Shown piece by piece: positions 6,488 to 24,742 of a stretch of DNA of 34,923 nucleotides. Location: the NCBI GenBank assembly GCA_017881725.1, contig JADGQO010000036.1, positions 1 to 34,923 of the forward strand, in the 5' to 3' direction. The notes below the pieces were generated by a model, which was given only the letters and a program-made list of their open reading frames with translations, made no database searches and was not told the DNA's origin. How positions within the stretch are numbered: position 1 is the stretch's first letter; each line of letters starts with the position of its first letter. The position numbers and the translations under genes are program-made. The DNA comes from Fibrobacteria bacterium. GTDB lineage: Bacteria > Fibrobacterota > Fibrobacteria > UBA11236.

Positions 6488-7699
6488 TCACTTCTTATGG
6501 CACTGTAGGCACAACTCCTTTTTCGGATCCTTGGGCAAATACTTGGGGAAGTCGGAGTTGTGCAATTTATGGCAGCCCAGGCAGGTGAGCGGTTTTCCCG
6601 TCATGGGATTGATGGCTTTGTCGCCCAGGGGATGCGAGCCGTGGCTCTTGGTATGGCATTGCATGCACAATTCGGATCCCACCGCGCGTAGATATTTGTC
6701 GTTGTCGCCTCCGTGGGGGTTGTGACAGCGGTTGCAATTGAAATCCGGATGGGTGATGAAATGTTTCTTTTCATCCTCGGTTTTGCCCTTGAGATGGCAG
6801 CCGATGCAAAGTTCCTTGGGCGGCAGACGGAGCAGCGAATCATTTTCCGAGGCGTGCGGGAAATGGCAGTTCATGCACGCGCCCGGCTTGTCCATGATAT
6901 GCCGGAACGGGAGTTTCTCGGCTTCCTTCATGTCCTTATGGCACTTGAAGCACAATTCCTTCATGTCGGATTTGAGCGCTGCGGAAAGCTGGTTTTTATT
7001 CACGGCATGGCAATCGTCGCATTTTCCGCCCGCGAAGGGCTTATGCTGCTTGGACATCAAAAGGCCCTTTTGATCCGAGGCATGGGGATTGTGGCAGACC
7101 AGGCAATTCACCTTGGGCGAAAAGTTCGCGGCATGGGCCTTCAAAAGCTTGGGCGTCTGCTTGTGGCAGGTCCAGCATAATTGCGGCACCGAGTCCTTGA
7201 GAATGCGCGGGTTGCCGGAGCTGTGCGGGTCATGGCAGTCGTAACATTTCTTGCCGACGGGATCATGGACGTATTTCTTTTTGAGCCATTCGACCGCTTG
7301 CTTATGGCAACGCGTGCAGAGTTCCGGCTTTCCCGAAGTGAGCATTTTTTCGTTGTCGGTGGCGTGGGGATCATGGCAAGCCTGGCAATCCCCGCCCTGG
7401 AAAGGCTTATGCACGTTGGGCGCAGCCTGCTTTTCCTTCATCTTTTCATGGCAGGAAACGCATAGCTTCAAGGGATCGATATTGAGCAAATCCTCGTGCT
7501 TGGAGGCGTGGGGATTATGGCAATCCGGGCAACGGCCTTCCTGGTACACCTTATGGACATGCTTCTTGGCCAGAAGTTCCTTTTTATCCTTGTGGCACTC
7601 GAAGCATACGTTGGGATAATCCACGGGCGGGACCTGGGCGCGCGCGGCAGACGCGGCAAAGACGCCGAACCAAATTGCGATCAAGATCACGTTTTTCAT
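6488..7699 (-). CDS. 16-heme periplasmic cytochrome c (doubled-CXXCH family)
   Basis: 403 aa with a signal peptide ending near ASAARA. I count 16 CXXCH motifs (first CFECH, last CLQCH two residues before the end), about one heme per 25 residues. Motifs alternate in the doubled-CXXCH pattern, with many CXXCHNPH/CXXCHDPH units where the trailing His is a likely distal axial ligand. No enzymatic domain is visible, so it is most simply an electron conduit. Its ATG shares a 4-nt ATGA overlap (7696-7699) with the stop of the 26-heme gene; it is the last gene of the seven-gene operon. It looks like a shorter paralogue of the 26-heme protein. Periplasmic or outer-membrane location is inferred. Confidence 0.95.
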   Translation of the reverse strand: MKNVILIAIWFGVFAASAARAQVPPVDYPNVCFECHKDKKELLAKKHVHKVYQEGRCPDCHNPHASKHEDLLNIDPLKLCVSCHEKMKEKQAAPNVHKPFQGGDCQACHDPHATDNEKMLTSGKPELCTRCHKQAVEWLKKKYVHDPVGKKCYDCHDPHSSGNPRILKDSVPQLCWTCHKQTPKLLKAHAANFSPKVNCLVCHNPHASDQKGLLMSKQHKPFAGGKCDDCHAVNKNQLSAALKSDMKELCFKCHKDMKEAEKLPFRHIMDKPGACMNCHFPHASENDSLLRLPPKELCIGCHLKGKTEDEKKHFITHPDFNCNRCHNPHGGDNDKYLRAVGSELCMQCHTKSHGSHPLGDKAINPMTGKPLTCLGCHKLHNSDFPKYLPKDPKKELCLQCHKK

Positions 7700-9741
7700 T
7701 TTTTATCCGCCTTCGGTTGGGGCGGGGCGACAGGCGGAGGCGTCGCGGGGACTTTATCCTTATGGCAGGCCTTGCAATTCCGTTTTTCAAAAGGCGGGTG
7801 GGAGTTTTCCTGCAACAGCCCTTTCGCCTCGGAAACGTGCGGGTCATGGCACTTGCGGCAATCGATGACGGCGTCCTTGATGTTCAGATGCTTGGACTGC
7901 CAGGATTTTTCGTCGGTGTCGTGGCATTCCTTGCACAGGGCCGGCACGCCTTTGCGCAGCAGGGTTTCCTTCTTGCTGTTATGCGGCTTATGGCAATCCA
8001 GGCAGGTGCCGTCGGCCAGGGCCTCGTGGATTTCGCCCTTTTCCATCCGCTTCTTCAGGTCCTTATGGCAGCTCAGGCACAAATCCTTATCCTTGTCGAG
8101 GAGCAACTTCTTCACCTTGCCCATATGCGGCTGGTGGCACAGCATGCATTTTCCGTCCTTCACCGGCGCATGGTTGCTCACGACGTCCTTCAGGTCCTTC
8201 ATGGCGGTATGGCAGGAATAACACAAGGAGTCGCCCGGCAGCTTGAGTAACTTCGCATTCGGCGATGCGTGGGTCAGATGGCAGGAGTCGCAAGCCTTGT
8301 CCGCGAAGGGCTTGTGCGCGATGGTGTCGATCTTATTATTGAACAGCTTTTCATGGCACTTTTCGCACAGCTCGGATTTGGTGGGAGCCTTGAGCAGTTT
8401 GGCGTTGGCCGAAGAATGGGGTTCATGGCAATCGTTGCATTTGCCGTTGGTCACGGGAGAATGCACGTCCGCCTTTTTGTTCCACTCGCCGACCTGGGAG
8501 TGGCATTCGCCGCATAATGCGCGCCGCGGGGCCTTGGTCAGCTTCTCGTATTTCGAACCGTGCGACAAGTGGCAATCCAAGCAATCGCCGTCGCCGAAGG
8601 ATTCATGCACCACCTTGTTCTTGAATTCGGCCTTGGTCTTGGGATGGCACTCCAGGCACATGGGCGTGGTTTCCTTGGCGATGAGATGCTTCTTCTCATT
8701 GCCGTGAGCCTTGTGGCAGAGCAGGCAGTTTTTCTTGGCGGGCTCGTGCTGGGACAAAAGGTTGAGCTTGGGCCCGATTTCCTTATGGCATTCCAGGCAT
8801 ATTTGTTCCGGATCCTTCGCAAGTAACGCGGGTCGCGCGGAACCGTGGGCATCGTGACAAGTCGTGCATTTGCCCTTGGCGACGGGATCATGCGTGCCGT
8901 CCTTCACCATGTCTTTTTGCTTGTGACAGTTTAGGCATAGCTCGTTGGTATCGGCCTTGAGCTTGACGGGCTGTCCTGGCGCGGACGCCAAATGGCAGGC
9001 GCCGCATTGGTGCTTGGCGACGGGCGCGTGGATGGATCGAGTGAACAGGCCGGCCGTGTCGGAGGCGTGCGAGGCATGGCAGGCCGTGCATTTGGATCCG
9101 TCCATCGGGTATCCCTGGTGGGCGGCGACAAAGGCTTTTTTGTCCGGCTTGTGGCATTCGAAACAAAACCCTTTGGGATCCGATTTCAGCATGGAGGCGT
9201 TGTTGCTGCCGTGGGCCTCATGGCAGCTGAAGCATCCGTCCTTCATGGGCTTGTGGCGCTCTTTGCCTTGGAAATGCGAGCTGTCATGGCAATTGACGCA
9301 TAGCTTTTCCAAATCCGTTTTCAACATGCCCGGCGCTTTGCCCGCATGCGGCTCATGGCACACGTCGCACTTCCCTTGCGCTTCGGGAGGATGCACGTGC
9401 GCTTTGTTCAGACCCAGCTTTTCCTTATCGTGGCATTCCATGCACAGCTTGGCGTTGTCTTCCTTGAGCAACAAGATGGGCACCTTGCCGTGCGGCTTAT
9501 GGCATGCGAGACACTCTTCCTTCTTATAGGGCTTGTGCAACACATCGCCCGGGAAGGCATCTTTTTTATGGCAGCCCGCAGTGAGGCAATTGCTGGTTTT
9601 ATCGAAACGGCCGCCCGAACTGAATTGCGCCCACGCGCCCGGTGGGACGCAGAGTGCCAGCGCGAATACGAGCCAAGCCAGGCCGGCGCGGCCAGCGAGG
9701 CCGGCAAGACCCGCAGATAGGGAATTAAATCGATTTTCCAA
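7696..9741 (-). CDS. 26-heme cytochrome c
   Basis: 681 aa. N-terminal signal peptide (about 1-38, ending PPGAWAQ). I count 26 heme-binding motifs: the first is an expanded CX4CH (CLTAGCH), followed by 25 CXXCH, about one heme per 26 residues. Repeated CXXCHxPH/CXXCHxAHG units match the doubled-CXXCH family. The C-terminus is a short Pro/Lys-rich tail (PPPVAPPQPKADKK) that could tether or bind a partner. The start is TTG at 9741, 17 nt inside the prolyl isomerase gene, with a weak GGAAC ribosome site; no better start precedes the signal sequence. A role as a long electron wire spanning the periplasm or entering the outer-membrane complex is inferred from heme density and from the beta-barrel in the same operon. 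Confidence 0.94.
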   Translation of the reverse strand: MENRFNSLSAGLAGLAGRAGLAWLVFALALCVPPGAWAQFSSGGRFDKTSNCLTAGCHKKDAFPGDVLHKPYKKEECLACHKPHGKVPILLLKEDNAKLCMECHDKEKLGLNKAHVHPPEAQGKCDVCHEPHAGKAPGMLKTDLEKLCVNCHDSSHFQGKERHKPMKDGCFSCHEAHGSNNASMLKSDPKGFCFECHKPDKKAFVAAHQGYPMDGSKCTACHASHASDTAGLFTRSIHAPVAKHQCGACHLASAPGQPVKLKADTNELCLNCHKQKDMVKDGTHDPVAKGKCTTCHDAHGSARPALLAKDPEQICLECHKEIGPKLNLLSQHEPAKKNCLLCHKAHGNEKKHLIAKETTPMCLECHPKTKAEFKNKVVHESFGDGDCLDCHLSHGSKYEKLTKAPRRALCGECHSQVGEWNKKADVHSPVTNGKCNDCHEPHSSANAKLLKAPTKSELCEKCHEKLFNNKIDTIAHKPFADKACDSCHLTHASPNAKLLKLPGDSLCYSCHTAMKDLKDVVSNHAPVKDGKCMLCHQPHMGKVKKLLLDKDKDLCLSCHKDLKKRMEKGEIHEALADGTCLDCHKPHNSKKETLLRKGVPALCKECHDTDEKSWQSKHLNIKDAVIDCRKCHDPHVSEAKGLLQENSHPPFEKRNCKACHKDKVPATPPPVAPPQPKADKK

Positions 9742-11401
9742 AATAGTTCCGAATGTTTTCTTGGAAATACACGACGTTGGAATTCTTCTTCAGCGTGGCC
9801 AGAACGGCGTCCAACCCCGCCTTGAACTTGCGTTGGAACATGACCTGGCGGATTTGCATATCCACCTCTTCCATGGTCTTGATGCGGCCCTTGCGCCGAT
9901 CCTCGACATTGAAAATCACCCAGCCTTCGGTGGTGCCGTACGCGCCGGAATGGCCGCCCACAGGGAGGTCCTTCATCTGGCGTTGGACATTAGCCGGCAA
10001 GGTTTCCATGGTGACCCATTCTTCGGAACTGTTTACCAGGGTTTGCGTCGTACTTCCTTTGGGGATTTGCGAGGCCAGGTATTTGAAGTCCGTGCCCTTG
10101 TTGAGCCGCTGTACCCATTGATCGGCCGTGTCTTTGGACACGATCTTCACCTGGGTGAGCTTGAATTGATCCGGCAACCGGAAATCTTCCTGGTGCTGCG
10201 CGTAATAATCCGCAAACTCCTGCTTGTTGAATTTGATGTTCTTCACGACCATTTCCTGGATGTACATCTCGATGAGACAGCTATCCTGCGCCCGCTTCGC
10301 TGCGGCGTTCACCGATGGCTTGGCCAAATACCCTTTTTGTTTGACCACCGCGTCCAACGAGGCTTCCGCTTGCAGGGATTTGAGGGCCCGTTCCACCAAT
10401 TTTTGATACCCAACATTGCCGTCGCTCATGACATAGCGCGAGACCCGCGTGCGGAAAGCCTGGTCGGTCACGCCGGAACCGCCGGGAATTTGGATGACAA
10501 CGGTCGTATCGCCTTTGAGATAGTCGGCGCTGAGCACGCGGACGGAATCCATCGCGATGCGATCGAACGCCTTTTGATTGATGACGGGCGCGCGGCCAAT
10601 CTGGATTTGCGCCAGGAATTTCTCCCACGCCGCCTGTTTTTTTTCATCCAGAAGCATGGCGCGGATGCTGGCCTCGAATTTGGGCAACTCCTTGGGGTCG
10701 GCCGGCAGGGCTTTTTCCACCCGCAATAGGCTATAGGCGTCGTGGAAGGGATAGGGCGCGGACATCTCGCCCACCGGCAATTTTTCGGCGATGTCACGGA
10801 GTTGGTTTTCGATGTCGGCGTAATGCAACAGGGGATGCAAACCGCCATCGTAACGGCGCGTGTCCAGGGACATGGCCTTGGCCAGGGAATCCATGGAGAC
10901 GCCGGATTTGATTTCCGCCGCCCGTCGTTGCGCCTCCGCCAAGGTCGGCAGCGCCAAGGTCCGGATTTGGAAACGGCGGTAATACCGGGCGAAGGCCGTG
11001 GCGATTTCCGGCTTGGAGACCACGGTCGGAGGATGAAAATTCTGTTTCAGGTATTGTCCTAAACCGATGTTGGCGCGTATGGAAGCGACCGTAGCCTGGA
11101 CGTGCTCATCCTTGTCCATCTGCATGGCCTCGGCCTCTTGCAGGAGCAGAAGATCGTTGACGGCTTTCTTCAGCAAGTTTTCGTAATCGAACTTGGACCG
11201 ATCCGAATTGGTGAGTTTGCTGTGGAAATCGATGATCGCCTGATTCATGTCCTTGCCGCGTATGGTATCCAGACCAATCACGGCCAGCGGCAGTCCGCTC
11301 CCTTGGGGTTTGACGGCGGCGGCGGAACTCCAGGCGGGCAGAACGGCCAAGAAAAAACCGGCGGACCGAAGGATAGGGGAACTCATGGGCAAGGATTTCA
11401 T
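9725..11401 (-). CDS. Periplasmic peptidyl-prolyl isomerase with two parvulin-like modules
   Basis: 558 aa from the ATG at 11401, chosen because it forms an ATGA overlap with the upstream stop and begins a signal peptide (about 1-28); the frame is open further upstream but that would overlap the preceding gene. Organisation resembles SurA/PpiD-type chaperones: N-terminal helical region, a first PpiC/parvulin-like module near 131-232 (EIKSG..DSLAKAMS..DGGL..YSLLRVE) and a second near 395-505 (NKGTDFKYLA, DLPVGGHSGAY, GWVIFNVEDRRKG). Such proteins assist folding of exported and outer-membrane proteins. Its place between the beta-barrel/CsgG-like genes and the two giant cytochromes suggests it is dedicated to them. 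Prolyl isomerase genes are also known beside Geobacter filament cytochromes. Confidence 0.87.
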   Translation of the reverse strand: MKSLPMSSPILRSAGFFLAVLPAWSSAAAVKPQGSGLPLAVIGLDTIRGKDMNQAIIDFHSKLTNSDRSKFDYENLLKKAVNDLLLLQEAEAMQMDKDEHVQATVASIRANIGLGQYLKQNFHPPTVVSKPEIATAFARYYRRFQIRTLALPTLAEAQRRAAEIKSGVSMDSLAKAMSLDTRRYDGGLHPLLHYADIENQLRDIAEKLPVGEMSAPYPFHDAYSLLRVEKALPADPKELPKFEASIRAMLLDEKKQAAWEKFLAQIQIGRAPVINQKAFDRIAMDSVRVLSADYLKGDTTVVIQIPGGSGVTDQAFRTRVSRYVMSDGNVGYQKLVERALKSLQAEASLDAVVKQKGYLAKPSVNAAAKRAQDSCLIEMYIQEMVVKNIKFNKQEFADYYAQHQEDFRLPDQFKLTQVKIVSKDTADQWVQRLNKGTDFKYLASQIPKGSTTQTLVNSSEEWVTMETLPANVQRQMKDLPVGGHSGAYGTTEGWVIFNVEDRRKGRIKTMEEVDMQIRQVMFQRKFKAGLDAVLATLKKNSNVVYFQENIRNYFGKSI

Positions 11402-12576
11402 GGCTTGGGTACCTCGGTTTTCGCGATGCGGGCGATGCGCGAAATGCGCGTAAAGGGTTGCAGATCCAGTAATTTCCCGAGCTGATCGGTGATCAGGTTG
11501 GCGAAGGAATATTGACGTCCCACTCCGAAAATCCATTCGCTTTGCTGTCCGGCGGTCTGTCCGGACATGAGACCGGCTACCGAGCGGCTGCCGGTCCAAA
11601 GATACCGGACCGTCATTTCCACCTGCGGATTGGAAGTCTTCTCGTCGCCGCGTCCGGGAGAAAAATCATCCACCGATCCGGTGACGACGAAATCGACTCC
11701 GAAGCGATCTTTAAGCTCCGCCATGGTTTCGAGATCGATTTCTCCGCGCGGCATGGTTTTGCGCGTCGCCAGCAATTCCTCCACCACTCCCGGTTCGATG
11801 ACCTCGAGCTTCATGGACGCCAGTTTGGGCAACATCAGCGCGGTAACGATATCCCCGGCGCGGGATTCTTCGCTTTGATTGTCGAAAGGAATGATCACGG
11901 CGGAATATCCCGTCGCGGTGGCTGCCCGGCAAGCCGCGCTGACGCATGCGGGCATGCTGCGGAATAATTTATCGACGACGCGCTCCGTCAGTTTTCCGGG
12001 GTCGCCGATGCGTCCCAATCCGAAAGCCCAGACGCCGTCCTGTCCGGATTGCGCCGCGCTCGCGGCCCAGACCACCTTGGCCGTCCCGGCATCCAACAAC
12101 CGCAAGGTCACGCCGACCTCGGGGATCCGTCCATCCGCGTACACGTCGATGGCGCCGATGGCGATATAATCGATGCCTCCGTCGCGGCGCAAAGCCTCGG
12201 CTCCGGCGGCGCTGATGCCTCCCACGCTGCGGAGGCGATATTTCCGGATTAAGCCGCGCAGCGCATTCTCAGGATAAACCGTGAATCCACGTTTGCGAAA
12301 TTTATCGGCGAAAGCGGCAGCCACCCCTTGCGCCCCCTCCCGGCGTTCGGAAAGATTCAACAGCGGAAGGATAGCCACGGTTCCTTGACTTGGCACAGCC
12401 GGTTTTCCGGCCGCGACCTGGGCTTTTGGGATGGAGACGGATTGCGCGTTAGAGGGTGAAATGGAGGATGAAACGGAAGGCAACGCGATCGAGGCGGAAC
12501 CCGCATGGCATCGCGCCGAGAACGCCGCCAGGCCGGCGAATAAAATGGTTACAAGGGTGCGCGTGACGAACTGCAT
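11398..12576 (-). CDS. Secreted protein with two CsgG/GNA1162-like domains
   Basis: 392 aa with a signal peptide (about 1-25; SARCHA is not a good lipobox because of Arg before Cys). Two tandem alpha/beta modules share the CsgG/GNA1162/TolB-N-like layout: the first, near 67-210, starts TVAILPLLNLS and has GIDYIAIGAID; the second, near 225-370, starts SAVIIPFDNQS and has GVDFVVTGSVD. CsgG itself is the outer-membrane curli secretion channel and GNA1162-like proteins are outer-membrane-associated lipoproteins. Here a role in assembling or gating the cytochrome/beta-barrel complex is inferred only from context. It overlaps the next gene by ATGA and follows the related lipoprotein gene by 1 nt. 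Confidence 0.68.
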   Translation of the reverse strand: MQFVTRTLVTILFAGLAAFSARCHAGSASIALPSVSSSISPSNAQSVSIPKAQVAAGKPAVPSQGTVAILPLLNLSERREGAQGVAAAFADKFRKRGFTVYPENALRGLIRKYRLRSVGGISAAGAEALRRDGGIDYIAIGAIDVYADGRIPEVGVTLRLLDAGTAKVVWAASAAQSGQDGVWAFGLGRIGDPGKLTERVVDKLFRSMPACVSAACRAATATGYSAVIIPFDNQSEESRAGDIVTALMLPKLASMKLEVIEPGVVEELLATRKTMPRGEIDLETMAELKDRFGVDFVVTGSVDDFSPGRGDEKTSNPQVEMTVRYLWTGSRSVAGLMSGQTAGQQSEWIFGVGRQYSFANLITDQLGKLLDLQPFTRISRIARIAKTEVPKP

Positions 12577-12577
12577 A

Positions 12578-13189
12578 TTATCGTATAAGAGTTTTGATCA
12601 AACCTTTGACGCATCCGATGGTGACGCGGCTTTTGGTATCCGGCTCCAATCCGAATATCACCTGGAAAAAACTCCGGCCGCCTACCGTATAGCTCGCCGA
12701 CCAAACCGTGGTGCCTTTTTCGGCCTCCACCAAACGCGCGACCAAGGTCACCTCGCTGGGATTCGTACCGCCGTTGCGGCTCGCGGTGGATTCGTTCACG
12801 GATCCAAAGAATAGAGCCTGTACGCCGAGCGTTTTGGCCAGTTCGCGCATCTGATCCTTTTGCAAATCCCCGGTGCGTACCAGCGAGTATTTCTCCAAAG
12901 CCTTGGTCACCTCTCCGGGCTCGACCACGTCGAAGGCGCGCCTGGAAAGCAGTTCGGCGACGAATACCCGGGTTACCCGCCCGGCCGCGCCCGCGTCATC
13001 GGATAGGTTTTCGAAGGGAATCACGGCCACGGATTCGATGGATTTGAAATTGAAATCCGTGTTCAGGAACAGGCTGCCCCGATTGCCCGCGCACGAGGAC
13101 AGGAGACACGCCGCGCCGAACAGGAAGGCTGCATGAATAAAGCCCATTGACTTAGAAAGGTTCTGGACGGATTTTTTTAGCGACAACAT
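12578..13189 (-). CDS. CsgG/GNA1162-like outer-membrane lipoprotein
   Basis: 203 aa lipoprotein: hydrophobic signal followed by lipobox LSSC with lipidated Cys33. An internal Met15 could also start the signal peptide; the ATG at 13189 gives 5-nt spacing from the upstream stop. One alpha/beta module with the family's opening strand (SVAVIPFENLS) and LGVQALFFGSVNES, closely paralleling each half of the neighbouring double-domain protein, so the two genes look like products of duplication. No enzymatic motif. The short C-terminus after the domain (GCVKGLIKTLIR) lacks the long beta-hairpin region of true CsgG pores as far as I can see, so pore formation is unproven. Confidence 0.7.
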   Translation of the reverse strand: MLSLKKSVQNLSKSMGFIHAAFLFGAACLLSSCAGNRGSLFLNTDFNFKSIESVAVIPFENLSDDAGAAGRVTRVFVAELLSRRAFDVVEPGEVTKALEKYSLVRTGDLQKDQMRELAKTLGVQALFFGSVNESTASRNGGTNPSEVTLVARLVEAEKGTTVWSASYTVGGRSFFQVIFGLEPDTKSRVTIGCVKGLIKTLIR

Positions 13190-13194
13190 GGCGG

Positions 13195-15272
13195 TTAAAA
13201 ACCCGTATGGACGCCGACCATGGCGGACAAGGATTTGTCTCCGCCAGCAGTCCAGGCATCGTACTTGTTAATCTGGCAATACATCGTGCCATTTCTGGCA
13301 AACTCATAGTTGAGATAATACGCGTAACGCTCGGTTCCTACGCCGTTTTGGCGCGATGTAAACGCGGATTGGGCCCCGAAACTCACCTTCGGGACAATGT
13401 GCCAGTTGAGGTTATACTCCTGATTCACGGAAATCGCCCCATCTTCGAGCACATCGGTTTCACCGGTGATAAGTATGGTTTGAGTGAGTCTAAGCGTAAG
13501 GTTTCCACTAAACCTGTTTTGCGCAATTCGCATGCCGGAATGCGTCTCGCGGGAAGTTCTGTAAGCGTAGGTCATCATCGCCCCCAATTTTTTGAAAACG
13601 TCGCCGTCTAGGGATAATTGGTAGTTCCAAGTTTCAAATTCCTTATCGGACTCCAATTGAAGATTGCGGTTGAATCCCACCTCGCTGGACAAGTTCAAGG
13701 CCGGCAAGAGGCTCCCGTGCAGCTGCGTCAGGACGGACGCGTTTTCCTGGGCTTCGCGCCCTTGGAAAAAACTCCAAAGATCGGTGACCGATAGACCCAA
13801 GTCCAGGGCGTCCCAAGGATGGTATTGCAAGTTGTAATTCATCAGGCGAGTCTCGGTGGATAACTGGTCGTCGCCGACGTTGCCTTGGTCATCTTGAACG
13901 CGCGCCGTGCCGGAAACGAATTGCGAAAAGCGCTGATGGCTGGACACGGCGACATACATATCATTTTTTTTTTAACCTCTGGCGAGGAAAAGGGTTCGTT
14001 TTGGAAGCCCATGTCCAGCGACAGGTCATACCTATCGGAAATCAGGTAGGTGGAGTTCATGCTGAGGATTTGCGTGGAGGTTTGCTGGAAATCGTGGCTG
14101 CGCCCCACCTCCGACCGCATGGCCTCAAGTTCGGTGATGGCCACGCGGCCCGTATCGGCTGTGCCTTTGAAAACCACCTTGAGGAATTGGCTGGTCGTAT
14201 TCGGAAAACTGATTTCAAAACGCTGGTAGGCCGCGTCGAAACGGCTTTCCACCGGATCCGTCAATGCCTCCCATTGCATTTCGTTGCCGTAAAAATCCGC
14301 CTTGGACACGTAAATGGTCCAAACGCCCGGTGATAAGGTCTTTTTGTTGGTGTACAGGTATACGGTGCCAATTTCCTTAGGACTTCCGAAATCCATGGCG
14401 ATATTCCCGTCCAGGTTTTCCTGACCCACTTCAATGTCCGGCGTCACGGCCGCCGTTTTATTACCGTCCAACAGGCCCGTCACGGAATCCAGCACGCTGT
14501 ACTGGGGCGAGGGATCGACCGCGTAGAATACGCGCTGCACCGGGACCCATTGCAGGATGGGGACGCCCGCGGGTTTCGCATAGTCGCTGGTCAAATAACT
14601 CAGGGCATAATCGCTGCGTACGCGCAGTTTCTGGTTCAGGAAGGCTTGGTTTTGGTTCCAGCGAAAGGTTTGTGAGGTCCTCTGCTCCACGGCGGCGAGG
14701 TTCGCGTTTTCCGTTTGTTGGCCATTGGCATTGTACGCGAAGTTTTGGGTTCCGTACTGCCAACTGAGCCCTCCCCGCACGGCGCTCTCGTAAATGTCGC
14801 GGTCGGCGGGATTCTCCGGCGTATACAGATGATCGGCGTCCAATCCCAGGTTGAGTCGGGGCCAGGTCTGGTTTTTGGTGTGGAAACTCAGGCTGCCGTT
14901 ATCGCGCGTGATATCCTGATCGGAATTATCCGATTGCGAAATTTGCCGCTCCCCCAAGGCGCCCACGGTGAACCAGGGGGTATTCCAGGTCAATTGGCCC
15001 ATGGGCGCCATTTGGCTGTTGTAGGATCGCACGCCATCCATTTCCTGGCCTTGATGGTCGAAATGCAAGGCCGCGTCGCCGGATAAATAAGGCGTGAACG
15101 TGCGGTTGATGGACAAGGCGTATTTCTGGTTCAAGACGGACACGTAGCTCCCGTTCAACCGCATGTCCGTCTGGGTAACATCCACGTTACCCGTCAGGTT
15201 CAAGGGATCCTGGGCTGCGGCCGCTCCCAGGCACGCGCATAGGCCAAGGCATGCTTTCATTCCGGTTTTCAT
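13195..15272 (-). pseudogene. Outer-membrane beta-barrel with inserted discoidin-like domain; frame broken at an A10 tract
   Basis: One gene read in two frames. The first part (15272 to about 13965) has a signal peptide (1-20), alternating beta-strand segments and, near residues 262-386, a jelly-roll segment resembling F5/8 type C (discoidin) domains (VYLYTNKKTLSPGVWTIYVS, FLKVVFKG, VAITELEAM). At a run of ten A on the coding strand (T10 at 13964-13973) the frame changes; the continuation ends at 13195 and shows more amphipathic strands finishing VGVHTGF with a terminal Phe typical of barrels. Adding one A, or removing two, restores an open frame of roughly 690 codons (EVKKK-NDMYVAVSS). A sequencing or assembly indel, or true slippage, could explain it, so inactivity is not established. 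Starts with an ATGA overlap; likely the porin partner of the multiheme cytochromes. Confidence 0.8.
13964..13973 (-). repeat. A10 homopolymer at the frame break of the barrel gene
   Basis: Ten consecutive T on the plus strand, A10 on the coding strand. Upstream reading gives PEVKKK; the two flanking frames join if the run is 11 or 8 long. It could be a technical indel or a slip-prone site. Confidence 0.9.
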
Positions 15273-17527
15273 TGGGCGAAACTCACTGCTTCGGGATTTT
15301 TACCCGTGTCCAGGTATCCCTGGTTTTCCCAACTGTTGGCGTTGTAAAAACCGATTTTCCCCGCATTGGGGAACACCACGACCAGGCGCTTGGTTTCCGG
15401 GTCCAGGGCGATTTTTCCGGGCGTGCGGTCGAGGTTGATGGAACCGATTTCCAGGTTGTTTTCCGGTTTAAGGATAGCGATGCTGTTGCATTCCGGAAGC
15501 GAGGCGAACAGGACGCGCAGCGTCGGTTGCCAGGCGAATCCTTGCGCGGGCGCGCACATCCTTAAGTTGGCCAGCACGGAGTTACGCGCGATGTCGACGA
15601 AGGCCACTTGCCTTTGCGCCGGCAAACTGACCATCAGTCTCCGGTCCCCCCCGGTATACACAACCTCCCCCAGGTTGCCTGCGAAGCGTTGCACCGTCGC
15701 GACCGCAAACGAGGCCGGATCAATGCCGAAGAGCCGTTCCGATTCGGGGCTGGCGACATAGACCACCTGGTTTTGTTCATCCACAGCAAAGGAGGCTGGA
15801 GCCGCCTCCAGCCGAACACGTCGAGTTTCCCGGTACCCGGCGAGATCAATGATGGATACGCTGTTGGATCCGGCGTTCAGGACATAGAGCCGGTTCTGAT
15901 CCGCCGACACGGCGAGACGCATGGGATCATCGCCCACCCGCAAGGCGATACTCCTCTGGAGCCGGCAGGTATGCGCGTCGATCACGGACACATTGTCCGA
16001 CCCGGAGTTCGCGGTAAAAACCTCCTGGCGGCGCGACGCATAGGCCAAGTCCCGGGGATTTTGTCCCACCGCGACGACGTCCACCACCCGCTGCCCGAAC
16101 CTGTCCGCGCAAGTCACGGTATGCGAACCGGAATTCGCGATGAACATGAGTGATCCCGTCGCCACGGTCCGGGCCCCTTGCACGGTCAGGGAAGGGCGCA
16201 AAGCCTTGCCGTCGCTGGCATCCTTTCCGGATTCCCAAACGAGGAAGATGGGGAAGGCGCTCCCGGGCCGCACGTCGATTCCGAGCGGAATTTCGACGCG
16301 TTGATCGGGATATGCAGACAACGGTTGGCCCGCATGCGGGGCGGCCCGGATGTGTTTGAGGCACACGCCGAGCGACGAATATTGGCCGACCGGAAGCGGC
16401 TGCTCGCACAGCAGGACTTGCCTGCCGGAAAGCTCCTTGGACTTGAAAGCCGGAAACTCCAAGGACAACCTTAGTGTGTCCTTCGCTCCGCAGAACTCCA
16501 AAGTATCCACGACCATTTCCACCTCATGGTCATGGCCCGCCGGTGACTCGAAATAGACAGCAGCCAACCCTGTGCCCGGGGCGGAAGCCCATGCCATGCG
16601 CACCGAGGCGAACATGAGAGCAAAAACGAAAATGGCCCAGCCCAAGGCCGGGGACCGGGAAGGATTCTGCGAGGGATTGGTTTGCGCCTCTGCGTTTTTT
16701 CGAAAGTCCGGATCCGCAATTTTTTCTTGCGTCAATCCAACGGGCAAATAGTAAAGGCTGAAACGCGAGCGGTGGGCCATGGCATAAGATCGAAATTCCG
16801 GATCTCGGAGTAATGGGTGGCGGCGCGACACTACATAAAGCGGACGGCTGCGACCATGGCAAAGCCCATCCAGGAATTCGCAGATCGAAGCGGCGGACAC
16901 CGGCCCGGTGTAAAGCTTGAAATGCTCCACTCCGCGCGCATCGACGGCAGAGAGCTGCAGCAAACCGTCGCGGATTTTTTCGGGCTCCCATAGGAAATAA
17001 ATTTCCGCACGATTCAGGCGCGCGTCGGTTTTGATTTTCACATATTCTGCGGCAAACCATTCCCGTTCCGCCTCGGTGGCCGCGTGCGCGCCAAGCCTGG
17101 ACGAGGGTTTCGTCCGGAAAAATTTGTACAAGGGAGGATGCGCGACTACGCCCAATTGAACGAATAACCGAGCCACGGAGGCCGGGCTTAATTCCAAGCC
17201 ATGCTGGTATCTCAGTAAATCGCCTACGAGTTCACGCGTCCATAGCCCGCCCCCCAAATGGAAATCGTTCGGCGCGTGTGCCACGAGCGTCTTGAGTACT
17301 GCTTCCGACTGCTCCAGCTCCAATTTTTTTGGACGACCCACGATCCGCTTGGCCTTCAACGCGCCCGTTCCACCATCCCGGAATTTTGCCATCCACCGGT
17401 AAATGCAGGAGCGCGAGAGACCCAGCGACTGGACCACCGACGCGGGACTTTCCCCGTTCGCGACCTTATCCATCGCCAGGAGGCGGATGGATTCCAAGGT
17501 CATGTGATCGTATTTGCGGCCGTCCAT
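15269..17527 (-). CDS. Fusion: catalytically dead IS630-type transposase region + signal anchor + YVTN beta-propeller
   Basis: 752 aa in one uninterrupted frame. Residues 1-65 form a helix-turn-helix (SPASVVQSLGLSRSCIYRWM) and 70-135 a winged HTH with the IS630-type pattern (LWTRELVGDLL, SPASVARLFVQLGV). Residues 155-265 follow the DDE fold, but the first acidic residue is Trp180 (EIYFLWE), the expected DN pair is Ser-Arg (YVVSRRHP) and the final Glu motif is gone (LPVGLTQ). A hydrophobic segment (294-308) ends in a signal-peptidase-like AWASA (to 316). The rest, from about 410, is a YVTN-type seven-blade propeller (FIANSGSHTV, FTANSGSDNVSVID, YVLNAGSNSVSIID). It could be a membrane-spanning DNA-binding sensor, or a secreted propeller fused to a relic. 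First gene of the operon; ATGA overlap with the barrel gene. Confidence 0.85.
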   Translation of the reverse strand: MDGRKYDHMTLESIRLLAMDKVANGESPASVVQSLGLSRSCIYRWMAKFRDGGTGALKAKRIVGRPKKLELEQSEAVLKTLVAHAPNDFHLGGGLWTRELVGDLLRYQHGLELSPASVARLFVQLGVVAHPPLYKFFRTKPSSRLGAHAATEAEREWFAAEYVKIKTDARLNRAEIYFLWEPEKIRDGLLQLSAVDARGVEHFKLYTGPVSAASICEFLDGLCHGRSRPLYVVSRRHPLLRDPEFRSYAMAHRSRFSLYYLPVGLTQEKIADPDFRKNAEAQTNPSQNPSRSPALGWAIFVFALMFASVRMAWASAPGTGLAAVYFESPAGHDHEVEMVVDTLEFCGAKDTLRLSLEFPAFKSKELSGRQVLLCEQPLPVGQYSSLGVCLKHIRAAPHAGQPLSAYPDQRVEIPLGIDVRPGSAFPIFLVWESGKDASDGKALRPSLTVQGARTVATGSLMFIANSGSHTVTCADRFGQRVVDVVAVGQNPRDLAYASRRQEVFTANSGSDNVSVIDAHTCRLQRSIALRVGDDPMRLAVSADQNRLYVLNAGSNSVSIIDLAGYRETRRVRLEAAPASFAVDEQNQVVYVASPESERLFGIDPASFAVATVQRFAGNLGEVVYTGGDRRLMVSLPAQRQVAFVDIARNSVLANLRMCAPAQGFAWQPTLRVLFASLPECNSIAILKPENNLEIGSINLDRTPGKIALDPETKRLVVVFPNAGKIGFYNANSWENQGYLDTGKNPEAVSFAQ

Positions 17528-17621
17528 TTTATTCTCGAAGTTTAAATTGTCTCGTTTATGTATCGATTTTGTACCGATTATGTCTTCTTACTTTTGGACC
17601 AATCGAAAATTTTCGGCGAAA

Positions 17622-17661: not shown

Positions 17662-18726
17662 TCAGATCTTCGGACGGTCGTAGGCGTCCTTGACATGGCA
17701 CTTGTTGCACAGCGAACGTTGGTTAACGCTCGTGTACGGATTGGCCAAGGCATAGGATCCAGAAGCGACGCCGTCATCCGACAGGAAGGTGACGTTGAAG
17801 TCCCAGCGTCCGGCATTCGGAGCGGAGGAACCATGGGCGCGATGGCAGGTCAAGCACATGACTTGGCTGGTGGCGGTCGGAGAGGCCGTCGAGGCAATCG
17901 TGTTGGCCGGATCCTCGAAGGGAACTTGCGCCAAGTACGAGGTGGCCGGATTGCCGCCGGTGATATCGTCCGTGCCGTTATACAGCGAGTAGTTGCTGGC
18001 GATGGTGCCGCCCAAGGGCATGCCCGACGGATGGATGGACTTGGTGCCGCCGGCTTGCGCATGGAAGTCTCCATGGCAATTGCCGCACCAGCCGCTCATG
18101 CCGCTCTTATACGCGGTATGGTTGGTGTTGGTTTCCGTACCACCGGTGCTTCCGACGTCCAGGCCCACGGCCACGGGAGCGGGATTCAGGAAGGTATAAT
18201 TGCCTTGGGTCACTACGCGGCCCGCGCCGTACAGCATGCGGAAATCGGAGGTACCATGCGGATCATGGCAGCTGGAGCAGCCCAAAACGCCTGCGGGGTA
18301 GTTGCCGCCGGGTGATTTGGTCAGGGTGGCGTCCGGTGACAAGCCGAATGCCGGGGCATTCAAATTATGGCCGGCGCGATCGCCCGAAATGGGACTGGTG
18401 GCTCCACTATGACCGTCGTTCAAATTGGCGGCCTTTAAGAACACAAAATTACCGCCGCCCTTGGTGGGACCAGGTACCAACGGATCGGCAGCTAAGAGCG
18501 CGCCGTTGCTGGTGGCATGGCAACCCAAGCACACGTCGCTGGGCGTTGATTTCTTGAGCAACCATCCATTTCCATTGGGATGATCGGGGTCAACAAGCAC
18601 GCCTCCGGCGCTGTTGTGCATGGTATGGCAGCCGTTACAATGGGCCGCGCCTCCATCATGGAATGCGAAAACGTTGGTGGTCAACCCTGCAGCTATTACG
18701 AGTGCAGTGGCCATAATCTTAATCAT
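17662..18726 (-). CDS. omcS-like: OmcS-like hexaheme cytochrome c, predicted filament (nanowire) subunit
   Basis: 354 aa (Geobacter OmcS is somewhat longer). Signal peptide 1-21 (TTNVFA) gives a mature N-terminus FHDGGAAHCNGCHTMHNS that aligns residue for residue with recalled OmcS (FHSGGVAECEGCHTMHNS). Six CXXCH motifs occur in the OmcS order: CNGCH, CLGCH, CSSCH, CGNCH, CLTCH, CNKCH, with family landmarks GGNYPAGVLGCSSCHDPHG, GMSGWCGNCHGDFH, AQVPFEDP and CNKCHVKDAYDRP. His37 (His16 of the mature form) is kept; in OmcS filaments this His ligates heme 5 of the next subunit, so polymerisation is predicted. The gene has its own strong ribosome site and terminator and lies between the maturation operon and the export/conduit operon. 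Homology is judged from recalled family sequence, not a search. Confidence 0.92.
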   Translation of the reverse strand: MIKIMATALVIAAGLTTNVFAFHDGGAAHCNGCHTMHNSAGGVLVDPDHPNGNGWLLKKSTPSDVCLGCHATSNGALLAADPLVPGPTKGGGNFVFLKAANLNDGHSGATSPISGDRAGHNLNAPAFGLSPDATLTKSPGGNYPAGVLGCSSCHDPHGTSDFRMLYGAGRVVTQGNYTFLNPAPVAVGLDVGSTGGTETNTNHTAYKSGMSGWCGNCHGDFHAQAGGTKSIHPSGMPLGGTIASNYSLYNGTDDITGGNPATSYLAQVPFEDPANTIASTASPTATSQVMCLTCHRAHGSSAPNAGRWDFNVTFLSDDGVASGSYALANPYTSVNQRSLCNKCHVKDAYDRPKI

Positions 18727-20251: not shown

Positions 20252-21601
20252 TCAGTGCTCCAGGTGGTATTTCTGGAGTTTGATCCGGAAAGACGAATAG
20301 GGGACTTTCAGGTTGCGGGCCGCTTCCTTCATATTCCCGTTGGTCGCATGCAAAGCCTTTTTGATCACCATGCATTCCACTTGCGCGACGATGTCCTCCA
20401 GTGATTTATCCGAATCCAAATCGAAGTTGCCGAGATGATCCTGGGTGATTTCCTCCGGCAGGTGATGGCGGAATATCACCGGGCCGGGCACGGTAAGCAC
20501 CAGGCGCTCAATGATGGTTTCCAGTTGCCGGATATTCCCGGGCCAACGGTAATTGACAAGCAGCTTCATGGCGTCCGGATACACTTCGAAATGCGTTTGC
20601 GGCGAAAACTTGGCGAGAAAATACTCCACCAGTTGCGGGATGTCGTTCTGCCTCTCCCGCAGCGGCGGCATGTCGATGGGCAAAATACTGATGCGGTAAT
20701 AAAGCTCGTACCGGAACTGGCTTTTCTGCGTCAGCTCCAGGAGGTTGGCCCCGGTGCCGGCGATGATCCGCGCGGGCGCGGGCACGGGCTTGTCCCCGGC
20801 GGGACGCGCCGCTTGGGCGGCCTTGGCCTGGAAAAACTCGATCAGTTTGAGCTGGGTTTCCAACGGGATATGCTCGACTTCGTCCAGGAACAGCGTGCCT
20901 CCGGAGGCCATTTCCATCGCGCCTTTTTTTTGGATAACTCCAAGGTTACCCGTATCTTGAAGGTTACCGAATAATTCCGCGTCGAAAAGTTCCTTGGGAA
21001 CGATGGAACAGGAAAACTTCAGGAACGGCCCGCGCCGCCGGTCGCTGTTCTGATGGATGGCCTTGGCGACTTTGTCCTTGCCGGTGCCGATCTCACCCTG
21101 GATCAGCACCGTCCCCTGGTTATGGGAGACCACCTCGATTTTCTCGTACAACTGGTGCATTTCGGGCGTTTGGCCGATCAATTCGAAAAAGCGGTACTTG
21201 CGCGCGAGCAAGGAAGTCTGCAGTTCGGCGGGATGGGAAAAGCGGGCCGGCGCCTCCATTTGGTGGAAAAACAAATCCAGCGATTCCGCGGTGACGGGTT
21301 TGCGCAGAAACTCGCAGGCCCCTTTGTTCAACAGTTGGTGGGCCACGGAACTGCCGTTCATGTCCCCGGTCAAGGCAACGAACAGGGCCGGATTTTCGCG
21401 CCGGAGTTCCTGGAGATCCAGGGCATCCTGTTCATGGAATTGGCCGAGGTTCCAGATCAATCCATTCGGCGCCTCCTTGCGGATGACCGGCAGGGCCTCC
21501 GTCGCGGCGCGGAACATCAAGGGTTCGCAACCGCGCGCGGAAAGCATCGGCCCCAATTTGGCCAGGAAGGCTTCGTCCTTATCGATGACGCAGATTTTCA
21601 T
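20252..21601 (-). CDS. NtrC-like regulator with degenerate receiver and no GAFTGA loop
   Basis: 449 aa. The receiver-like domain (1-110) keeps acidic residues D7, D9 and E10 and K101, but the phospho-acceptor is Asn51 (LIWNLGQ). The AAA+ domain keeps Walker A GEIGTGKD (169-176), Walker B GGTLFLDEV and the arginine-finger region (FRYELYYRI). The sigma54-contacting GAFTGA stretch is absent: where it belongs (about 212-224) the sequence reads NLQDTGNLGVIQK. A Fis-type HTH closes the protein (about 412-446). It therefore probably does not respond to phosphorylation and cannot open sigma54 promoters in the usual way; TyrR-like sigma70 control or repression are alternatives. It sits 25 nt after CcsA and 2 nt before the NHL gene. 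Confidence 0.88.
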   Translation of the reverse strand: MKICVIDKDEAFLAKLGPMLSARGCEPLMFRAATEALPVIRKEAPNGLIWNLGQFHEQDALDLQELRRENPALFVALTGDMNGSSVAHQLLNKGACEFLRKPVTAESLDLFFHQMEAPARFSHPAELQTSLLARKYRFFELIGQTPEMHQLYEKIEVVSHNQGTVLIQGEIGTGKDKVAKAIHQNSDRRRGPFLKFSCSIVPKELFDAELFGNLQDTGNLGVIQKKGAMEMASGGTLFLDEVEHIPLETQLKLIEFFQAKAAQAARPAGDKPVPAPARIIAGTGANLLELTQKSQFRYELYYRISILPIDMPPLRERQNDIPQLVEYFLAKFSPQTHFEVYPDAMKLLVNYRWPGNIRQLETIIERLVLTVPGPVIFRHHLPEEITQDHLGNFDLDSDKSLEDIVAQVECMVIKKALHATNGNMKEAARNLKVPYSSFRIKLQKYHLEH

Positions 21602-21626
21602 GCGGCCGGCTTTCCATCCCGGGCGA

Positions 21627-23540
21627 TCATGTCGGCAGCGACTTGGCGTCCGCTCTTTTCACCAGGTAAAGCATGGCCGCCAAAAAGACCGCCTCGCCGC
21701 CGACATAGGCCGAGAGGGCCGTCGCCACGCCGGTGGTGAAGCCGTAAGAGTGGAGACCCACGCCCAGCAGGTTGATGCCGAACCAGGCCATCATCACGAC
21801 GATGATGCCGAGCACCGCGCCCACGGCCATGCCTAGCGCCCCGATCATCTTGCCGACCTTGGCGTGGAACAGGATCGAACCCCAAAGCACAATCATCAGC
21901 GCGCCGTTTTCCTTGGGATCCCAGCCCCAGAAACGGCCCCAGCTTTGATCCGCCCAAACTCCTCCCAATACCGTGCCGATGAAGGAGAAAATCAATCCGA
22001 AGGCCAGGATGGCGTAGGTCATGCGGATCATGGCATCGAGCTTTTCCCCGGCCTTATTGTTCCAGGCCCGCTGGATGATGTAGAAGTGGCCCAAGACCCC
22101 GGCCAGGCACATTCCGGCGTAACCCAGGCTGATGGTAATCACGTGCGTGGAAAGCCAGAAATTCGAATTCAATACGGCCACGAGCACGCCGATGGTATCC
22201 CCGTCCGTATCGTAACGGCCCGAGAGCAAAAGCACCAGGAAGCCCGTCATCGATCCGACCAAAACGCCGAAGCCTTTGCGGTTGAAGAATTCCAGAGCCA
22301 GGCCCAGCACTCCGCCTACCCAGGAGACGAACAGGAAGGTTTCGAACAGGTTCGACACCGGCGCGCGCCCGCTGATGGCCACGCGCAAGGCCAGACCCGC
22401 GCCTTGGATCAGGGCTGCGGCGATCAGCAAAAACACGGTGGGCCAGTAAATCCATTTCCGCATCACCATCATCCCGATGAGAGCGCCGAGGATGGCGAAG
22501 CCCAACAGGATTTTGGTCAGATAGAACGGATCCAGCGCGTTGTATGCCAACTCCAATTTGATGCGCGTGGGATTCACCAATCCGGCTCCCAGCTTTCCCG
22601 TAAATGCCGTAATGTTGGTCACGGCTTGATCAAACTCCTCCGGTTGTCCGGCGATATATGCCGAGGCCATGGCATGCAAAGATTGGATGGCGGCTTTGAC
22701 TTCCGGATCCATGTTGGGCTTGCCGACCAATGACCACGGGCCGATCCACATTTCGGAGCCCTTTTCCATCGGCGGGATCAACGCCGGCGGGAAATCGCGA
22801 TAATGCTGGGTCCAATTGGTGAAGTTCTGGAACAGATGGTAAGCGCCCATTTCGGCGGATGACCAAGTCGTCGGATCGCGCGCTCCGGGACCGCCATTTT
22901 CGCCGGCCATCAACGGTTGCACCAGGGAAGCCATTTGGCCCATATGCCCACGGATATCCATGTAGCTGTAGGGTTGCGGCCGGGGGTCAAGACCCAGCGC
23001 CTTGGCCGTGGCCGTGTCGGTCACCTTGAAATCCGGACTGGGAATGGCGAAAAGAAACGCGTTGGAAATCCCCACGTAAACGCTGAGGTTGTTGGCGACG
23101 CGGATGATTTCCGATTCCACCGGCGTGCGCTTCTTCTCGTCCACCTTCATGGCGGCATCGGCCAGATCGGAAAGCTTCGAGATGGCGGGGCTGATCTGCG
23201 CAAAGGTATAACGGCTGTCCGACTGCGGCTCCACGCCGATGGAATAAACCACGTCCGGGTTGTTGATGCGGAAAACCTTGTCGTCCATCGCATCCTTGGG
23301 CGTGAACATCACGCGCGCCAGCCATTCTACCGCCGCTTGGCCCTTGTAGGCGCTGCGGGCGCTGAGCTGCATCAGGGTCACGCGCGCATAGGTATCGAGT
23401 GGCTTGACGCGCCCGCCGTCCAATACGGGCATGGCCTTGAATTTGTCCAAGGAAATTTTCGGGGAGGCGACGGCTGAGAGGCAGGCTGACAACCCGATCG
23501 CTCCGGCCAGGGAAATCTTGAAGAGCGCTTGGAATTTCAT
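21627..23540 (-). CDS. ccsA: CcsA/ResC-type cytochrome c biogenesis protein (heme handling) with large N-terminal extension
   Basis: 637 aa, roughly twice a minimal CcsA. Residues 1-25 form a signal peptide and about 26-335 a soluble extracytoplasmic domain (PVLDGGRVKPLDTYARVT). The remainder is polytopic with the heme-binding WWD-type segment WGRFWGWDPKENGALMIVLW and the C-terminal NLLGVGLHSYGF signature of CcsA/ResC. In System II this protein exports heme and, with ResB/CcsB, attaches it to CXXCH cysteines on the outer face of the inner membrane. It overlaps resB by ATGA (23537-23540). A dedicated maturation pair beside genes needing dozens of hemes makes functional sense. Confidence 0.92.
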   Translation of the reverse strand: MKFQALFKISLAGAIGLSACLSAVASPKISLDKFKAMPVLDGGRVKPLDTYARVTLMQLSARSAYKGQAAVEWLARVMFTPKDAMDDKVFRINNPDVVYSIGVEPQSDSRYTFAQISPAISKLSDLADAAMKVDEKKRTPVESEIIRVANNLSVYVGISNAFLFAIPSPDFKVTDTATAKALGLDPRPQPYSYMDIRGHMGQMASLVQPLMAGENGGPGARDPTTWSSAEMGAYHLFQNFTNWTQHYRDFPPALIPPMEKGSEMWIGPWSLVGKPNMDPEVKAAIQSLHAMASAYIAGQPEEFDQAVTNITAFTGKLGAGLVNPTRIKLELAYNALDPFYLTKILLGFAILGALIGMMVMRKWIYWPTVFLLIAAALIQGAGLALRVAISGRAPVSNLFETFLFVSWVGGVLGLALEFFNRKGFGVLVGSMTGFLVLLLSGRYDTDGDTIGVLVAVLNSNFWLSTHVITISLGYAGMCLAGVLGHFYIIQRAWNNKAGEKLDAMIRMTYAILAFGLIFSFIGTVLGGVWADQSWGRFWGWDPKENGALMIVLWGSILFHAKVGKMIGALGMAVGAVLGIIVVMMAWFGINLLGVGLHSYGFTTGVATALSAYVGGEAVFLAAMLYLVKRADAKSLPT

Positions 23541-24742
23541 TTCACCACCTCACCGGGCGACTTGACATTAGCGGATTTCCCGGCGTGATTTCCGTAACGG
23601 AAGAGCATCACCAGGAAATGGAAAAGCATGCCGCAGAAAATCATGGCTCCGCTGATATACGGCAGCAGTTTGCCTGAATTCTCCACCACGGCGAAAACCG
23701 AGGACTCATGGCCCTGGGCGTCCACGTCATAAGAGCTTTGATAAAAAGTGAAGTCCTTATAATGCAAGGGATGGTTCATGTTGATGCGGGTCTTGAAACT
23801 CATCGCGCCTTCGGCTTTGACCTCCACGTCGCTTTGATAGGTCCGCGCGATGCCCGTGCCCGGATACTCCTCTTTCTTGACGTCGATAAGGCGGATGCTT
23901 ACGGGCAGCGGATGGCGCTGCTTACGTAGGGTGACCTGGATGAGATGGCCTTGCACGTCCACCGTGAGCGGTTCCAATTGGCCGCCATAGAGCAGAAGCT
24001 CTTGGGCATCGCCGCCGGCGGGCTTGATGCGCAGCCGGGCTCCGGCAATATTATCCTCCGGATCCTGAGCGGGCCTGCGCGTGACCAGGTTGCCGAGCTT
24101 GCGCATCTCGGCGGGGCCGGACATGCCTGTGGTGTCCGCAGTCGGGTCGCAATTACGGTAATAATTCTCCAATATGGCTTTGAATCCGAATTCGGAGAAG
24201 TCGATCTCCTCGCCCACTTGGCCGGTCCCGAGTTGTACCGCGGAAACCTTGCGCTCCAACCCGCCTTCGCCGTCGCTCCACACGGCCAATTCCCAAGCGC
24301 GCCGATCCAGGGATACGTTGGATACCTCCTTTTCGGCGAGCGGAAGATAGGACTCCTGGGCGAACTTGAAGGTCACGAAAGAACCGGCCAGGAGGAACAG
24401 GAATCCGGAATGCGTGAGGATGTTTCCGATATTCGCGAAGCTGTAAGTGACGCGGAAAACCATGGAGGCGATGAGGTTGAAGAACAAAACCCACATTACC
24501 AGTTGCGCGCCGGGTAGGGGAAGAAATCCCCCGACTAAAAAGTACCATGAGAAGAAAAAACGGGTTTGGGCCGCGTACAATCCGGCCTCGGCCTGATAAA
24601 TCGTTCCCCAAGCGGTGAGGATCAACAAGAGCAGGAGGCATACCACTGATATCTTGAGGGATGCCAGGCGGGGCGCCCAGGATCGCAGCGTCGGCATGGA
24701 GCCGAACCATGCCTTCGCCCTTGCGTCGATGGGCGAGCTCAT
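23537..24742 (-). CDS. resB: ResB/CcsB-like cytochrome c biogenesis protein
   Basis: 401 aa. Three hydrophobic helices in the first 130 residues (LKISVVCLLLLLILTAW near 28-44; LVMWVLFFNLIASMVF; HSGFLFLLAGSFVTF), a large extracytoplasmic domain (about 130-355) and a last TM helix (YISGAMIFCGMLFHFLVMLF), the ResB/CcsB topology. HPLHYKDFTFYQSSY in the soluble domain is a ResB hallmark. It partners CcsA in thioether heme attachment. ATGA overlaps join it to the upstream lipoprotein gene (24739-24742) and downstream ccsA. Confidence 0.92.
   Translation of the reverse strand: MSSPIDARAKAWFGSMPTLRSWAPRLASLKISVVCLLLLLILTAWGTIYQAEAGLYAAQTRFFFSWYFLVGGFLPLPGAQLVMWVLFFNLIASMVFRVTYSFANIGNILTHSGFLFLLAGSFVTFKFAQESYLPLAEKEVSNVSLDRRAWELAVWSDGEGGLERKVSAVQLGTGQVGEEIDFSEFGFKAILENYYRNCDPTADTTGMSGPAEMRKLGNLVTRRPAQDPEDNIAGARLRIKPAGGDAQELLLYGGQLEPLTVDVQGHLIQVTLRKQRHPLPVSIRLIDVKKEEYPGTGIARTYQSDVEVKAEGAMSFKTRINMNHPLHYKDFTFYQSSYDVDAQGHESSVFAVVENSGKLLPYISGAMIFCGMLFHFLVMLFRYGNHAGKSANVKSPGEVVK

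Follow-up and report, generated by a model that had tools for sequence, protein, structure and literature searches.

As a single open frame in the window (the whole stretch of 34,923 nucleotides analysed here) joins a transposase part to a beta-propeller, we were interested whether it encodes a regulator made from a mobile element or a host protein that carries the relic of an insertion sequence. In the preliminary description the frame was a dead IS630 transposase fused to a propeller through a hydrophobic segment and domesticated as a one-component transmembrane regulator in the style of ToxR or CadC. Profile matches, alignment and the unbroken frame agree with the first half of this statement, and the hydrophobic segment was found between the two parts:

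15269..17527 (-): fusion ORF of 752 codons, ATG start at 17527, the last 4 bases overlapping the next gene (ATGA)
17348..17527 (-): residues 1-60, first helix-turn-helix (HTH) of an IS630 transposase, 16/16 conserved columns kept
17114..17347 (-): residues 61-138, winged HTH, partly decayed, 11/18 conserved columns kept
16742..17104 (-): residues 142-262, what is left of the DDE/RNase H-like domain, without its catalytic residues, core predicted to fold
16649..16741 (-): residues 263-293, junction and linker clearly resembling neither parent
16580..16648 (-): residues 294-316, hydrophobic segment, aligning with signal peptides of related propeller lipoproteins
16610..16612 (-): codon 306 (TTC, Phe), near the lipobox Cys of the relatives, the exact register being set by inspection
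16178..16576 (-): residues 318-450, N-terminal domain typical of the propeller protein family, conserved in relatives
15272..16177 (-): residues 451-752, YVTN/YncE-type beta-propeller, with PF21783 and TIGR02276 matches at 450-748

Residues 16-178 match the IS630 transposase model NF033545 of NCBIfam with E=2e-22 and 80 bits, below its 100-bit cut-off, and matches to HTH_23/28/29/32 exceed the Pfam cut-offs; all Pfam HTH matches were of HTH_23/28/29/32/33 and transposase type, and an OmpR-like winged HTH was absent. Residues 2-262 show 33-40% identity to IS630 transposases, and the relatives of this part are ordinary, mostly intact members of that family, several with terminal inverted repeats. 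Alignment with 11 intact IS630 transposases and with L003, at 40% the nearest relative, confirmed that all three positions of the DDE/DDD catalytic triad are lost, as had been proposed: a deletion has removed the strand and loop bearing the first catalytic Asp, VVSRRHP stands in place of VVDGHP and lacks the second Asp and its Gly, and similarity stops at Leu-Pro, ahead of the final Glu, the end of the catalytic domain being missing. Outside the first HTH, 23 of the 50 conserved residues are kept; the catalytic region retains 12 of its 32 conserved columns, and ten of the lost ones lie in one deleted stretch. With a larger transposase set the counts were 15/16 for the first HTH, 10/16 for the winged HTH and 13/30 for the catalytic region. 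Both HTHs had been called intact, which is correct for the first and not for the winged one. Structure prediction of the DDE-like region led to an RNase H-like core (residues 152-261, pLDDT ~80) with Mos1 as best PDB match; a sequence search of the PDB with the transposase part gave no useful match. The part thus has the N-terminal HTH, winged HTH and RNase H-like core in the same order as IS630 transposases (NF033545; ISAzo33/IS885-like group; Tc1/mariner superfamily), and differs from them in the missing Asp/Asp/Glu, in a C-terminus replaced by the propeller protein and in unclear terminal repeats. Such repeats, expected of an insertion-sequence origin, were not demonstrable for the relic: the upstream PWM match is weak (P=0.10), none was found downstream, and a 22/33 match to the G092 repeat was picked after inspection. 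L003 (5452-6993) is an IS630-like gene of a Nitrospira MAG, truncated at the final catalytic motif; it belongs to an exopolysaccharide operon, where it starts 12 nt after a NusG/RfaH-like gene. As a domesticated cousin it was rejected; the first two of its catalytic motifs persist, unrelated sequence has taken the place of its tail, and it is more likely a decaying copy.

For the other parent, residues 294-752 were searched against 396 genomes of the phylum of this Nitrospira MAG. Relatives were detected in 56 of them, most in frames of ~470-560 codons, and all 11 examined open with a hydrophobic signal peptide, which lines up with residues 294-316, and a lipobox (SYGC, GVGC, LIGC, MTGC, WIGC, MVGC, FPAC, TAGC, PPGC, LAGC or LLGC), after which they carry the N-terminal domain and then the propeller, with no transposase and no DNA-binding part. 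The segment of the window protein, PALGWAIFVFALMFASVRMAWASA, aligns with these signal peptides, without the lipobox Cys, indicating its inheritance from the propeller parent; since the relatives begin there without a transposase, the transposase part is the addition. Going by this alignment, the membrane segment is an old lipoprotein signal peptide whose Cys is gone, and not a linker evolved for signalling; it comes with an AWA/SA signal-peptidase-like site. Compared to the Nitrospira-phylum lipoproteins (L106-L115, L122), the window protein shares the N-terminal domain and propeller (22-28% identity, residues 319-752) and the operon context of cytochrome, barrel, LpoB and PPIase genes, whereas those proteins start with a lipobox signal peptide and the window protein has 293 extra residues before the segment and no Cys. 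The propeller had been recognised before, while the separate domain at 318-450 had been overlooked. Among solved structures, the surface-layer protein 1l0q and hydrazine synthase beta are closest to the propeller in sequence; AlphaFold gave a pLDDT of 44 for the propeller half when run without an alignment, and the seven blades described earlier are putative. The same fusion, which the preliminary description had suggested looking for in related genomes, occurs in this genome only among 564 genomes of two phyla (168 of the window's phylum and 396 of the Nitrospira phylum), and appears to be an isolated accident of this lineage. Another candidate fusion (G302:C85), in a 1090-aa open frame, was rejected as artefactual, an intact transposase being followed there by a stretch of N.

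The neighbouring genes form a conserved porin-cytochrome-like operon at 6488-15272 and 17662-18726 (-), with counterparts in L116, L117 and L119-L122, comprising genes for a cytochrome, an NHL protein, the propeller lipoprotein, a barrel, LpoB/CsgG-like proteins, a PPIase and decaheme cytochromes. The stop codon of the fusion overlaps the start of the barrel gene, so that the fusion heads a run of same-strand genes:

17556..17583 (-): tandem 11-bp repeat, 2.5 copies, consensus TTATGTACCGA, between an upstream inverted repeat and the fusion start codon
13842..15272 (-): N-terminal part of a porin-like outer-membrane barrel, downstream of and overlapping the fusion
13195..13959 (-): C-terminal part of this barrel, read in a different frame beyond 10 consecutive A

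LpoB-like and CsgG-like genes, a PPIase and decaheme cytochromes come after the propeller gene in L116, L117, L119, L120 and L121, arranged as in the window; L122 has the same set in another arrangement, its cytochromes and PPIase lying on the opposite side, and L118, where the contig ends, has just the propeller, a cytochrome and a sigma-54 regulator. Most neighbourhoods have, upstream of the propeller gene, an NHL protein or a cytochrome like that of 17662-18726, and a transposase fusion was found in none of L116-L122. The barrel is matched in L120 and L122, and an unmatched frame of 776-777 codons takes its place in L116 and L117. Putative Nitrospira-phylum counterparts of the barrel are single frames of ~777 codons; the split in the window, at the 10-A run (~13961-13970), may reflect a sequencing error, a slippage site or a real break. 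As the barrel, CsgG-like and PPIase genes had no match in the other searched genomes of the window's own phylum, the operon was probably acquired horizontally or kept in this lineage only. Upstream of it, 20252-24742 (-) encodes a sigma-54 response regulator and cytochrome c maturation proteins (CcsB-like, ResB-like), and this response regulator is more likely than the fusion to control the cluster.

The state of the transposase frame bears on whether its product is retained. Its 262 decayed codons contain no stop, where ~5 are expected under neutral decay (P=0.007) in a simulation set to lose the same number of conserved residues as observed, and its indels relative to IS630 transposases all keep the frame. 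A complete first HTH had P=0.005 under neutral simulation. On a fixed tree, the window branch measures 0.54 substitutions per site in the first HTH and 1.57 and 1.64 in the other two regions, which makes the first HTH about three times slower-evolving than the rest of the transposase part; an ordinary L003-like branch with the excess of the other regions (expected ~1.22) was rejected for it (2dlnL ~11). The nearest relatives are likewise slower there, with HTH/rest rate ratios of 0.41 (L003), 0.41 (L104) and 0.49 (L032) vs 0.34 for the window, so part of the conservation signal predates the fusion, and the open frame alone is explicable because the propeller may depend on translation from the transposase start. 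Drawn from one sequence and distant relatives, the no-stop and first-HTH tests are suggestive that this HTH is better preserved than decay alone would leave, and a retained DNA-binding part is possible. The absent stops and complete first HTH argue against purely neutral evolution of the N-terminal region, which had been named as a sign of chance fusion. Codon usage is native-like over the first 70 codons, weaker over codons 71-140 and intermediate in the propeller, the parts being not clearly separable.

Taken together, the fusion is real and is best read as probably translated and born from an insertion-sequence relic, a regulatory role being possible. The reading that we prefer, at a probability of roughly 0.58, is that an IS630 relic was fused to the exported propeller of a conserved electron-transport operon and that the transposase part is mainly a passenger. 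An IS630-family insertion sequence would have landed between the multiheme cytochrome gene and the propeller gene, and a deletion would then have removed its right end together with the start region of the propeller gene, joining the transposase frame in frame to the signal peptide. Ribosomes would start at the transposase ATG, codon 1, or translation through the transposase frame would otherwise keep it open. The hydrophobic segment may still act as export signal and place the propeller outside the cytoplasmic membrane as a component of an electron conduit, where an uncleaved signal-anchor would hold it or cleavage at AWA/SA by signal peptidase I would set it free; it would lack the lipid anchor of the relatives. 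The transposase remnant would stay in the cytoplasm, where its first HTH may or may not bind DNA. The complete first HTH, its short branch and the predicted fold of the RNase H-like core speak against a pure passenger.

The complete, slowly evolving first HTH and the open frame would favour exaptation of the HTH, in that a chance fusion was later retained as a membrane-tethered one-component regulator which binds DNA close to the promoter of its own operon and responds to the propeller outside. An N-in/C-out topology is possible because the signal segment comes after 293 residues, and the lost lipobox would favour an uncleaved anchor, but the segment itself is an inherited signal peptide with a signal-peptidase-like site, the winged HTH has decayed, the slow first HTH is common to the nearest relatives, and the fusion is confined to one genome. 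The fusion is also the first gene past the inverted repeat behind the cytochrome gene, with the 11-bp repeat just upstream, which may be a candidate operator or binding site or due to chance. We consider this exaptation unlikely; that the HTH, as a transposon derivative, recognises an operator at the promoter of its own operon, with the 11-bp repeats as candidate, and that the propeller reports the state of the conduit is more doubtful still. A ToxR/CadC-style regulator is thus unsupported as the default: the order of a cytoplasmic DNA-binding part, one membrane segment and an outer sensor-like domain is possibly common to both, but here the DNA-binding part is of transposase origin and not OmpR-like, and the propeller relatives examined, which have no DNA-binding part, begin at the position of residues 290-316, as had been predicted for a chance fusion with a relic. 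The insertion-sequence relic is the better supported reading, and the regulator a minority one.

The start codon of the original propeller gene would be expected in or near residues 263-293, and the fusion might be an illusion of annotation if the propeller starts internally (ATG250, TTG261 or TTG265) with a long signal-peptide n-region, the upstream part being untranslated or decaying separately, in frame by chance. ATG250 and TTG265 are indeed present in frame, and the n-regions of some relatives (L110, L111) may be ~45 residues long. The in-frame scan revealed no ATG, GTG or TTG between codons 265 and 295, however, and no Shine-Dalgarno-like sequence at any in-frame start within codons 250-316, whereas the upstream cytochrome gene has one; the missing stops and frame-keeping indels likewise speak against an internal start, which is improbable. 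Hardly credible is an assembly artefact or pseudogene, whether from a contig join or a decaying gene, which the 235 contigs of this fragmented genome and the broken barrel gene next door might suggest: genes of one theme, for cytochromes, their maturation and the conduit, flank the transposase part on both sides, the reading frame continues through the join, the propeller part is undamaged, and the genes of the operon are open except for the barrel.

A transposase-propeller fusion was not found described in the literature searched. Recruitment of mobile genetic elements in prokaryotes has been reviewed (PMC8987985), animals have transposon-derived transcription factors (PMC10027918), and TldR is a mobile-element protein exapted as a regulator (PMC13418256). 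The likeness to such cases is a mobile-element protein possibly kept for DNA binding; TldR, however, is an RNA-guided, conserved family, and the window fusion is a single case with a putative function. If it is a relic only, it provides a worked example of an insertion sequence fusing to a bacterial host gene, and illustrates that a single-genome fusion needs to be checked against where the relatives of the partner begin. As a by-product, a conserved porin-cytochrome-like operon common to this genome and Nitrospira-phylum genomes has been recognised. If the HTH is functional, the protein would be the bacterial parallel to fusion regulators that animals have derived from transposases and may represent a young stage in the rise of membrane-bound regulators.
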